From: Methanomassiliicoccales archaeon
GTDB taxonomy: Archaea > Thermoplasmatota > Thermoplasmata > Methanomassiliicoccales > UBA472
Assembly: GCA_028682915.1 (NCBI GenBank)
Contig: JAJRAN010000074.1
Coordinates: 1-32,652, forward strand
Direction: 5' to 3'
Length of the DNA: 32,652 nt
Part shown: positions 29,619-32,652 of the stretch, piece by piece
Layout of the letters: every line of letters starts with the position of its first letter
How positions within the stretch are numbered: the stretch's first letter is position 1
The notes under the pieces: generated by a model
Seen by the model: only the letters and a program-made list of their open reading frames with translations
Databases searched by the model: none
What the model was told of the DNA's origin: nothing
Program-made: the position numbers and the translations under genes

Positions 29619-29719
29619 TGATACAGAATCACAGACTCCGTATATATCCTTTTTTCTCGTGAATAGCTAAGACAATTCGCCATTCTGGAAAAAAATTGTG
29701 CGGAGTGTATCCGAGGCTC

Positions 29720-29734
29720 GAACCTCACGGCATC
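29720..29734 (+). repeat. Island direct repeat, copy 1
   Basis: GAACCTCACGGCATC. Confidence 0.8.
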
Positions 29735-29752
29735 CCCCGCCACAACTCCGCC

Positions 29753-30280
29753 ATGCTAAATGATATTAAAACGCACATCCCTATTTATCTAGAGCCAATG
29801 AAAGATTACATTAGTGAGTTAAGTGACGAGCAATGGCAAGCTCTCAGAGAAAATATCCGTGTTGTGGCATGTCAGATATCGGTGAACGCCTTTCTGGATG
29901 TCGCGGATAGTAATAGCGTTATCAACAGCACACGTCCTTATTTTATTATGTCTGGCAAAGCCTTTGCGATAAATATTATCAATCTTTTTCATATCGAAGG
30001 AGACGACATCGATAAAATGGGAGATTGCTGCCTTATTTTCCACAAAATTTCCGACCATGATATGAATGAAATCGAAAGAACAAAAGATAAGATAGTTTGC
30101 GTCGGGGGGACAAAGTGTCATTGGAGGGACAATCCAAAGGAGATGTGCATAACGCATGGCGCCATATTCTTGAACGCTGTTTGCGAAGCCATCAATCCTG
30201 AGTACGAGTGTAAATTCACCCATATGATCACTAAAGGCGATCCTTTCTGCTCCTGGGTCATCGAGAAAAAGAAGAAGTGA
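29753..30280 (+). CDS. V4R/ATC-hydrolase-like single-domain protein
   Basis: CVGGTKCHWRDNPKEMCITHGAIFLNAVCEAINPEYECKFTHMITKGDPFCSWVIEKKKK resembles Cys-containing V4R/ATC-hydrolase-like C-termini; ATG 29753 preferred over 29696. Confidence 0.65.
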   Translation: MLNDIKTHIPIYLEPMKDYISELSDEQWQALRENIRVVACQISVNAFLDVADSNSVINSTRPYFIMSGKAFAINIINLFHIEGDDIDKMGDCCLIFHKISDHDMNEIERTKDKIVCVGGTKCHWRDNPKEMCITHGAIFLNAVCEAINPEYECKFTHMITKGDPFCSWVIEKKKK

Positions 30281-30307
30281 ATGGCTCCAGCTCACCTCTC
30301 AAAGCCC

Positions 30308-30322
30308 GAACCTCACGGCATC
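30308..30322 (+). repeat. Island direct repeat, copy 2
   Basis: GAACCTCACGGCATC, preceded by AGCCC as in copy 3. Confidence 0.8.
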
Positions 30323-30340
30323 TCGATAAGTCCTGGACCT

Positions 30341-30418
30341 TTACCTGATGTTCAAATGAAGATAGATCTGCGTCATCGCAGTGTCCTCGTGGCCGAGGTT
30401 CTCCCTGACGACCTCCAA
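30341..30418 (-). pseudogene. C-terminal remnant of tyrosine recombinase/integrase
   Basis: Minus-strand translation LEVVRENLGHEDTAMTQIYLHLNIR*: LGHxDxxMTxxYxHL box with the catalytic Tyr. No catalytic N-terminal part is present upstream. Confidence 0.72.
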
Positions 30419-30446
30419 GGAGGATAATCTTATCCAGTTGCGAGCT

Positions 30447-30656
30447 TTACCATTGCTTTCTTATTATAGCAGACGAACCGAGCAAGCCAATCCCAATAAT
30501 ACCAATAACTGCTGCTATGCCAGATTCAATCATACCTAGAAACAATAACCCTGCAGCGATCAAACAAGTTACCAATCCAATGATAAAGAGAATTTTATTC
30601 GTAATCGATTCATCTCCTTCAGAATCTTGCGAGTCATCCTAGAAATATCCTTTCAT
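30447..30656 (-). pseudogene. Small two-TM membrane ORF with in-frame TAG at codon 6
   Basis: MKGYF(TAG)DDSQDSEGDESITNKILFIIGLVTCLIAAGLLFLGMIESGIAAVIGIIGIGLLGSSAIIRKQW*. Confidence 0.4.
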
Positions 30657-30704
30657 GCTAGCGTTCGTTGATTGCCGAAGAATAACTGGTTCGATTCACA
30701 GCCC

Positions 30705-30719
30705 GAACCTCACGGCCGC
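30705..30719 (+). repeat. Island direct repeat, copy 3 (variant)
   Basis: AGCCC-GAACCTCACGGCcgC; last bases differ from the other three copies. Confidence 0.75.
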
Positions 30720-30741
30720 GTAACATACCGAACGGAGCCTC

Positions 30742-31224
30742 CTAAAGTGTAATTGTACCATTCAAGTCGTAAGGAACGCTCACAGTACCCAGGAACATGT
30801 CGAAATAGGCAGTTCCTACGAGCCTCCAGTCCGCCCCACCCTGCTGGATCAATGACCAGATGGTCTGAAGTCCCCCTGAATATGAGACGGTGAACAGTTG
30901 GGGAATGACTACGGAACCCCCAGCTGGGATGGTCGTCTTCTCCAGGTTCTGTCCGCTCCCCACGTTGATGTCGTTGATATACAATGTATAATCGGTCCTA
31001 TCGAGGGTGGCCGCGTTGGCGTTCGGGTTTGTAAAACGAAGTATGATGTTGAGGGTCGCGCTGGATGTGTTTAAACTCACCAACTTTACCCCATCTGCGC
31101 TTACCTGGATGTCCTCTAATGCCTGTCTTTGCTGGACCTGTTGATAGCTAAGAAACCCTACTACAATTGCAATGATGATCACAACGACCAACAAGGCAAT
31201 AGTACCTCTCTTCAAGCATACCAC
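30742..31224 (-). CDS. LEA type 2 / WHy-domain membrane-anchored protein
   Basis: N-terminal TM (RGTIALLVVVIIIAIVVGFLSY), then VKLVSLNTSSATLNIILRFTNPNANAATLDRTDYTLYINDINVGSG. Start is GTG 31224 or TTG 31215. Confidence 0.78.
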   Translation of the reverse strand: MVCLKRGTIALLVVVIIIAIVVGFLSYQQVQQRQALEDIQVSADGVKLVSLNTSSATLNIILRFTNPNANAATLDRTDYTLYINDINVGSGQNLEKTTIPAGGSVVIPQLFTVSYSGGLQTIWSLIQQGGADWRLVGTAYFDMFLGTVSVPYDLNGTITL

Positions 31225-31240
31225 CTTACGGTATCCCTGA

Positions 31241-32365
31241 TTACCTAGGATAATGCTTCTTGATGATCGCCATCTTCTCCTCGTATTCTTCCTTGGCAAT
31301 CTCCTCGTCGATGTACTTGTTGGTGAGTCGCTTTATCGGGTCGTCGGCAGTCCCTTCTTCCTTCGCCTTCTCCTTTGTGGCTTCGCCCTTCTTCCTTATC
31401 GTCCAGTGGCAGGTCTTGTCGCCCTTGGTCATCATGCAGTCGTAAGCGAACTTGTAATCGGGGTCGATGGCTTCGCAGATGCCATTGCAGAAGGCTTCGA
31501 ATTGCTGACAGACCGCTACCGGGGCTTCTCTAAAGGGACAATCCACGATAGTACGCTCCACCATGTTCAGTTCTGGAAGTGTGCTTGACGGCTCCATATG
31601 CAGCGCCCCATCAATAAGACATATGCTTGAGGTGATGCGCAGTAGGTCGAATGCACCATGGCTGGCTGAGGACCTTTTTAAGCCAAAGGAGGCTCCTCTG
31701 TGCTTCATATAAGGTGCTAGCATAGATGCCACCCGCTCTTCTCCCAAGTGATCTATGAGGGCTTTAGTGGCCAAAATCCAAAATTCCGCTAGGTATTGGA
31801 CGGAGAAGCTATCCACCATTTCCTTTGGAAGCTCCCAATTGAGGATATCGGCTATCATAGGGCCCAGGTCGCTTTCGTCCTTTAGATCCTGGCGACCGAA
31901 TGGCTTCATGACCCACTTACACTCCTTGTCCCCTCGCGCTGCGCATGATACCAAGGTGGATTGGTATGGGACCTCAAGCGCCTTGTTATAAGTCTCTTTT
32001 TCACAAAAAACCGTACAAATGGCATCAGGCCCATCCGAAAACGGACAACCGGATACTGTGGATATTGCCCCCCTCTGGAATACTCTAGCCCTCACTACTG
32101 GCGTTCGAGAGATGAAATTCCAAGTGACTGCAAAATAGAATCCCATCGCAATTCTGTCTTTCTGGTCTAGTCCAAAAGCCTTCATGATGATTAGGAGCGC
32201 TGCGTTCTCTGCGTTTCGGAAATATGGCCAAAGCAGTTTGACCGCTTCTTCTGATCCAGCGGTGTCCACTAAGGCTTGAACGCCATTGAGAAACCAATCG
32301 ACGAGCAATTCAGACGCAAGCTCTCCTTGCTCCGCGGACAGCTCCAAAGGTTGATTCTGCCCCAT
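31241..32365 (-). CDS. Tandem V4R/ATC-hydrolase-like protein with C-terminal SHOCT-like motif
   Basis: Two related units (SGCPFSDGPDAICTVFC...SCAARGDKECKWVMKP and VDCPFREAPVAVCQQFEAFCNGICEAIDPDYKFAYDCMMTKGDKTCHWTIRKK), then ADDPIKRLTNKYIDEEIAKEEYEEKMAIIKKHYPR. ATG 32365; TATA (CTTATAAG) at 32396-32403. Confidence 0.68.
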   Translation of the reverse strand: MGQNQPLELSAEQGELASELLVDWFLNGVQALVDTAGSEEAVKLLWPYFRNAENAALLIIMKAFGLDQKDRIAMGFYFAVTWNFISRTPVVRARVFQRGAISTVSGCPFSDGPDAICTVFCEKETYNKALEVPYQSTLVSCAARGDKECKWVMKPFGRQDLKDESDLGPMIADILNWELPKEMVDSFSVQYLAEFWILATKALIDHLGEERVASMLAPYMKHRGASFGLKRSSASHGAFDLLRITSSICLIDGALHMEPSSTLPELNMVERTIVDCPFREAPVAVCQQFEAFCNGICEAIDPDYKFAYDCMMTKGDKTCHWTIRKKGEATKEKAKEEGTADDPIKRLTNKYIDEEIAKEEYEEKMAIIKKHYPR

Positions 32366-32420
32366 CTTTCCCCGATGATGATTGGTATCGGTGTTCTTAT
32401 AAGGCATCGCTCCATCGCCA

Positions 32421-32435
32421 GAACCTCACGGCATC
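32421..32435 (+). repeat. Island direct repeat, copy 4
   Basis: GAACCTCACGGCATC. Confidence 0.8.
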
Positions 32436-32581
32436 CCTGACGACTACGGACGAAACGGCCCCGACCTTGAAACAATCTAATAAAATAAGAAAAAAAATAT
32501 TAAATTAAGCAGACCAGATGGCCCAATAGTAAGCATTATATACCCCGACAATTCGCGGAATTATCTATATCCCCTTCGGAA

Positions 32582-32652
32582 TGGTGCGAGGGGCCGGATT
32601 TGAACCGGCGGACCTCTGCAGGAACAGATCTTGAGTCTGTCGCCTTTGACCT
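32582..32652 (-). tRNA. tRNA-Leu (CAA), 5' end beyond window
   Basis: Reverse complement ...ACAGA CTCAAGA TCTGT TCCTGCAGAGGTCC GCCGG TTCAAAT CCGGC CCCTCGC A CCA: anticodon CAA, long variable arm (type II), encoded CCA. Confidence 0.9.

Follow-up and report, generated by a model that had tools for sequence, protein, structure and literature searches.

Capture of gene cassettes by site-specific recombination is known mainly in the form of the integron. SCC-type elements, which are bacterial, tens of kilobases long and dependent on serine recombinases, stand in tandem between direct repeats at the 3' end of rlmH. For archaea, integrons with standard attC sites and IntI are on record (Ghaly et al. 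2022, PMC9668308), in a text where a word search found neither Thermoplasmatota nor Methanomassiliicoccales named. Att sites inside SSV-type integrase genes are covered by a review of archaeal tyrosine recombinases (PMC8371274), in which word searches returned no mention of cassettes. Here we consider a window of 32,652 nucleotides, the whole stretch of DNA that was analysed, from contig JAJRAN010000074.1 (C1) of a Methanomassiliicoccales genome (G000; 1.84 Mb, 148 contigs, 94% complete). Judging from sequence comparison, the window probably contains a site-specific recombination array, in which small units would have been captured in tandem at a site into which an integrase gene extends with its 3' end.

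A preliminary description of the window had reported a 15-bp repeat in four copies, GAACCTCACGGCATC at 29720, 30308 and 32421 and the variant GAACCTCACGGCCGC at 30705, all on the + strand and with no copy elsewhere. All four were recovered as described, and nothing else in the window comes closer than two mismatches; at up to three mismatches, the window holds six matches to the 15-mer against 1.29 expected, a number reached in 0 of 100 shuffles. The AGCCC upstream of copies 2 and 3 was likewise correct. The repeat is longer than the 15-mer, extending to GATGCCGTGAGGTTCGGGCT when read on the - strand, and alignment of the copies on that strand gave the core GATGCsGTGAGGTTCGGGCTnTGAgA. The 15-mer is thus part of a 24-bp core, GATGCsGTGAGGTTCGGGCTnTGA. 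Numbered as the original copies, the core sites lie on the - strand at 29715..29734 (GATGCCGTGAGGTTCGAGCC, genome-wide E 1.1e-4), 30303..30322 (the consensus GATGCCGTGAGGTTCGGGCT, 4.8e-7), 30700..30719 (GCGGCCGTGAGGTTCGGGCT, 2.3e-4) and 32416..32435 (GATGCCGTGAGGTTCTGGCG, 1.8e-4).

Read as codons, the core (GAT GCG GTG AGG TTC GGG CTC TGA) gives DAVRFGL and a stop, and its 24 bp are those with which a XerA/IntI-like tyrosine recombinase gene ends, seven codons and the stop. The broken tail of such a gene does sit directly before copy 2, as had been noticed. This remnant (30302..30412, - strand) reads VVRENLGHEDTAMTQIYLHLNIR-stop-RSRTYRDAVRFG, a recombinase C-terminus with a stop in it; 37 codons are left, the last of which are core site 2. 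The commonest solo copy of the core encodes DAVRFGL, and within the core interior variation is greatest at a third codon position. On these grounds the repeat originated, by sequence, as the 3' end of an integrase gene, which ties it to a tyrosine recombinase more firmly than the preliminary description had guessed. A tRNA origin of the core, prompted by a resemblance to the T-arm, was ruled out by the codon match to integrase tails and by tRNA scans, and a tRNA-His called by ARAGORN on contig C69, which overlaps a core site, was taken as false.

Intact relatives of this recombinase were found in three genomes (G023, G024 and G041) as catalytic-domain proteins of 177-214 aa that end HLNIRQRSRxYxDxTRFGI/V. 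Among proteins of solved structure, they come closest to archaeal XerA and Vibrio IntI4 (3e-24 for IntI4). They score too low to pass the curated thresholds for XerA, XerC/D and integron integrase, matching integrase_gron at 8.8e-29 yet scoring 75-101 bits against a cut-off of 265, and the N-terminal part of integron integrases is missing from them. No intact integrase of the DAVRFGL type was found in any of the array genomes, and G000 gave no tyrosine recombinase match at all; the array genomes thus show no present machinery of this type, which counts against the array reading. The same is true of a second result, that none of the three genomes with an intact integrase carries convincing repeats of that gene's own 3' end. 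Integrase tails of differing length do remain beside sites in G000, G006, G007 and G010. Both the tails and the lack of an intact integrase in the array genomes would suit a different history, in which larger integrative elements with the integrase 3' end as att accumulated one behind another and were worn down by deletions to fossil scars with residual genes in between, involving no cassette traffic and much as SCC or integrative elements accrete in tandem; we consider this unlikely, and return to it below.

The search for a recombinase yielded some further observations. Serine recombinases occur just as much in the site-free G001 as in array genomes. At L072:1-1800 (contig C138 of G010), a tyrosine-recombinase frame of 377 aa and a gene for a resolvase lie upstream of five core sites. 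G037 contains 25 degenerate matches, against 2 in the control, to the integrase 3'-end pattern GANGCGACGAGGTTYGGNRT; they are unclustered and perhaps reflect codon bias. A general inverted repeat, GGTTCGGGCTC-TGAGAGAT-GAGCTAGAACC, was attractive by eye and turned out to be merely a shared unit end. Inverted arms around the core, which at a tyrosine-recombinase core site would enclose a spacer of 6-8 bp, show a slight downstream excess (4.28 vs 4.01 +/- 0.10) and none upstream, and this weakness also counts against the array reading.

The flanks of the sites speak for that reading. If the core is the point of recombination, two copies may have one flank in common, but not both. Comparison of 95 sites in pairs revealed homology of the left flank in 60 pairs, of the right in 17 and of both in one, the pairs with flank homology coming mostly from a few gene families, a point against the array reading; a first, smaller set had given 51, 11 and 1. 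Of that first set, 39 pairs have homology that runs up to the core, where the related flank is 79% identical and the other side 28.6%, which is the chance level. Pairs that abut fall into eight groups, four of them defined by the left flank and four by the right, and G010 and G040, members of different families, have a right flank in common up to the core. An example of cassette shuffling involves the window itself: unit 3 begins at site 4 with DNA 92% identical to the beginning of the second unit of contig C2, the left sides being different, and the first site on C2 has the same leader as window site 4 but a different unit behind it, so that the unit 3 start is first behind the leader in one array and second in the other. 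Unrelated DNA is therefore joined exactly at the core, which is the general test of a site-specific recombination array. A dispersed short repeat of transposon origin (MITE- or REP-like), clustered by chance, would share with the core its shortness and high copy number; insertion of such a repeat into homologous DNA leaves both flanks related, a pattern seen in the one pair, and free insertion gives both orientations, so we regard this origin as very improbable.

Orientation is in fact fixed. In the 446 kb of array contigs fetched, we detected 104 core copies against 0 in the reversed-sequence control, and neighbouring sites less than 3 kb apart have the same orientation in 51 out of 51 pairs. 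Gene strand relative to the sites is mixed, both within and between arrays. This constancy beside a varying gene strand, from which the preliminary description had argued against a promoter element, thus extends to all 51 pairs. That the core might be a regulatory element, an activator-binding site before co-regulated genes, finds a point in its favour in a small secreted-protein family, where it lies directly before a TATA-like box. The idea nevertheless has very little to recommend it, as array orientation disregards gene strand, sites occur behind genes too, homology stops at the core whether followed from the left or from the right, and a coding sequence has the core for its 3' end. Sites are separated by 201-2515 bp (median 700 bp) with genes between them. 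A CRISPR array, with even repeats and short spacers, was rejected on this spacing, the uneven distances having already been held against it. The low GC of the island was borne out, at 45.9 +/- 2.9% for inter-site DNA against 61.5% in the first 29.5 kb of the window. Since flank homology stops at the core, orientation is fixed and the island is missing in relatives (see below), the core is, on sequence grounds, a breakpoint of recombination and divides one small gene unit from the next, much as sites do between integron cassettes.

The units consist mostly of one or two low-GC accessory genes, usually intact. Unit 1 of the window holds the gene for a 175-aa protein (29753..30280, + strand), which has 27% identity to part of the 388-aa protein of unit 3. 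Unit 2 contains a hydrophobic open frame of 63 codons without an in-frame ATG (30447..30638, - strand), probably a broken membrane-protein gene. Unit 3 comprises a gene for an LEA_2-domain protein (30742..31299, - strand), whose LEA-like character was upheld by a match to PF03168 (4.5e-13) and whose annotated start is too early, the real one probably lying near 31215, and the gene for the 388-aa protein (31241..32407, - strand), which has a SHOCT-like tail by eye. The 388-aa protein carries two copies of a domain related to the unit 1 protein and belongs to no Pfam or NCBIfam family. The name V4R, given earlier to both proteins, is not supported, as neither has any match in Pfam; their homologues have sub-threshold matches to MetOD1 and ATC_hydrolase only. 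Relatives of the 388-aa protein lie in arrays on contigs C2, C28, C45 and C69, and a family of nine is related to the two window genes. Among the array contigs compared, the recurrent family of the 388-aa protein was seen in G000 only. Other recurrent unit families encode small signal-anchored (8), surface-repeat (7) and sensor-like (4) proteins. Unit types are met with repeatedly, at many sites and beside differing neighbours. Decay of large elements predicts neither this recurrence nor units of such even and modest size (median 700 bp), in which the one or two genes are usually intact.

One unit fits less well. A ketopantoate reductase-like (panE-like) gene at L334:5525-6620 (G009) is 86% identical over 943 bp to that at L079:15080-16077 (G007), and probably passed between the two genera recently. 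It stands in opposite orientation to the sites in the two genomes, and its homology ends 37-72 bp from them; gene and site thus do not form one fixed cassette there. The opposite orientations fit fossil scars, and, as the link of the array to a recombinase is itself indirect, they make accretion and decay of larger elements the main rival of the array reading.

The window array starts beside a tRNA gene. The tRNA placed at the window end by the preliminary description has an Rfam match (32585..32652, - strand) and is a tRNA-Leu(CAA) truncated by the end of the contig; over 71 nt it does not differ from the tRNA-Leu(CAA) on contig C29. Between its 3' end and site 4, the first site after tRNA and leader, lies a leader (32436..32584, - strand) recognized by its homology to the array leaders on C29, C45 and C2 of G000 and on C68 and C47 of G010; about 150 bp are common to all six. 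The arrays on C29 and C45 start behind intact tRNA-Leu genes, that of the window behind the truncated one, those on C2 and G010 C47 behind tRNA 3' fragments, and that on G010 C68 behind a tRNA-Leu 3' end interrupted by N. This adjacency to tRNA-Leu genes or their 3' fragments is a further point for fossil scars. The leader begins GGGG(G)ATATAG or GGGGTTATAG (window:32436-32652, - strand; L033:6140-6376; L034:7401-7621) and is able to base-pair with the acceptor end of the tRNA; a portion of it also stands behind tRNA-Leu(UAA) in G005, a genome without sites. The two tRNA-Leu(CAA) copies with their leaders (window:32585-32652 and L033:6140-6227, the same 71 nt) are possibly the duplicated att end of an older tRNA-integrating element.

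At the MetAP-tRNA-Leu locus, sites are present in G000, G007 and G010 and absent from G001, G006 and G008. The block of EcfT, DUF4430-like and PQQ-PKD genes flanking the window array is free of both array and sites in G005, G006, G007, G008 and G010. As five relatives lack the array at the same locus, the window island is an insertion and not ancestral content. The preliminary description had named findings that would speak against its proposal, among them copies scattered about and an identical island in every relative; neither appeared.

The 15-mer has nine exact and ten one-mismatch copies in G000, where the reversed pattern has none. The core occurs in about 20-30 copies each in G000 and two relatives, all Methanomassiliicoccales wetland MAGs; in a survey of 61 relatives, high numbers of the 20-mer were confined to G000, G007 and G010 (the latter two from the family of the window, in another genus), with a few copies in G040 and G006. 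An exact 20-mer scan of all GTDB r220 genomes retrieved Methanomassiliicoccaceae/-ales wetland MAGs and three stray bacterial matches. With a sequence model built from 53 copies of the core, strong matches were numerous in G000, G007 and G010 and scarce in G040, G006, G009 and G013; G001, which belongs to the same genus as the window and is 99% complete, had none. Viral contigs contained no 20-mer, with stray 17-mers and distant recombinases only, and phage and plasmid collections likewise gave only distant recombinases. Every site-rich array genome is a fragmented MAG, which also counts against the array reading.

We propose that a short XerA/IntI-like tyrosine recombinase gene, ending in DAVRFGL and a stop, originally had the recombination site across its 3' end, with the repeat as the core of that site. 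Units of 0.2-2.5 kb would have been joined successively at copies of the site in fixed orientation, often starting beside tRNA-Leu, to give a head-to-tail array; that of the window would be one example, its integrase decayed to a 37-codon tail. The recombinase may have made the joins by strand exchange inside the core of about 20 bp, formerly in cis or now in trans, and the units may have travelled as circles. The att-like site or cassette array first suggested for the island thus stands as regards clustering, shared orientation, site-bounded units, breakpoints at the core and absence of the island from relatives, while the action of a recombinase is something we infer. Whether these arrays represent a distinct archaeal gene-capture system that is not an integron, with a XerA-like recombinase now acting in trans, the 3' end of its own gene as the site, shuffled arrays behind tRNA-Leu and units spread between genera and families of Methanomassiliicoccales, is a more tentative suggestion, to which we give somewhat less than even credence.

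Integrons and CALINs are the closest comparison. As in those, same-orientation sites stand in tandem between small, low-GC, mostly unknown genes, the recombinase belongs to the Xer/IntI branch and the integrase is often not nearby. One- or two-gene units without a neighbouring integrase, and the relationship to IntI noted above, could even suggest a true archaeal integron. That identity is hardly credible in view of the sites: the attC pair R''/R' (RYYYAAC...GTTRRRY) was found at 0 of 50 sites, GTTRRRY occurs in 0 cores, and a conserved attC fold is lacking (z -0.01 at the sites vs -0.16 in the shifted control). The site is instead 24 bp from the 3' end of an integrase gene, gene strand is mixed where integron genes have mostly one orientation relative to their sites, and the recombinase, where an integron has IntI with its additional domain, is a catalytic-domain protein, short of the N-terminal part and under the integron-integrase cut-off. 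With SCC elements, the arrays have in common that units added in one orientation are separated by a short direct repeat which stems from a gene 3' end; they differ in that the target is the gene of the recombinase itself and the units measure about 0.7 kb. SSV-type ('suicidal') and pNOB8-type integrases are also archaeal, tRNA-associated tyrosine recombinases, with att within the integrase gene in SSV, whereas here the site is at the extreme 3' end, the gene is not split and there are many tandem copies. An SSV-type integrase element was rejected, the core being no tRNA sequence and sitting at the gene 3' end. If our reading is correct, methanogens possess a second arrangement and cassette arrays arose more than once; the site would be a sequence-defined double-strand one, identical to the stop-codon end of the gene for the recombinase, and, being short and defined, it makes that recombinase directly testable. 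The 24-bp core would then serve as a marker for a hidden pool of mobile genes in methane-producing archaea of wetlands.
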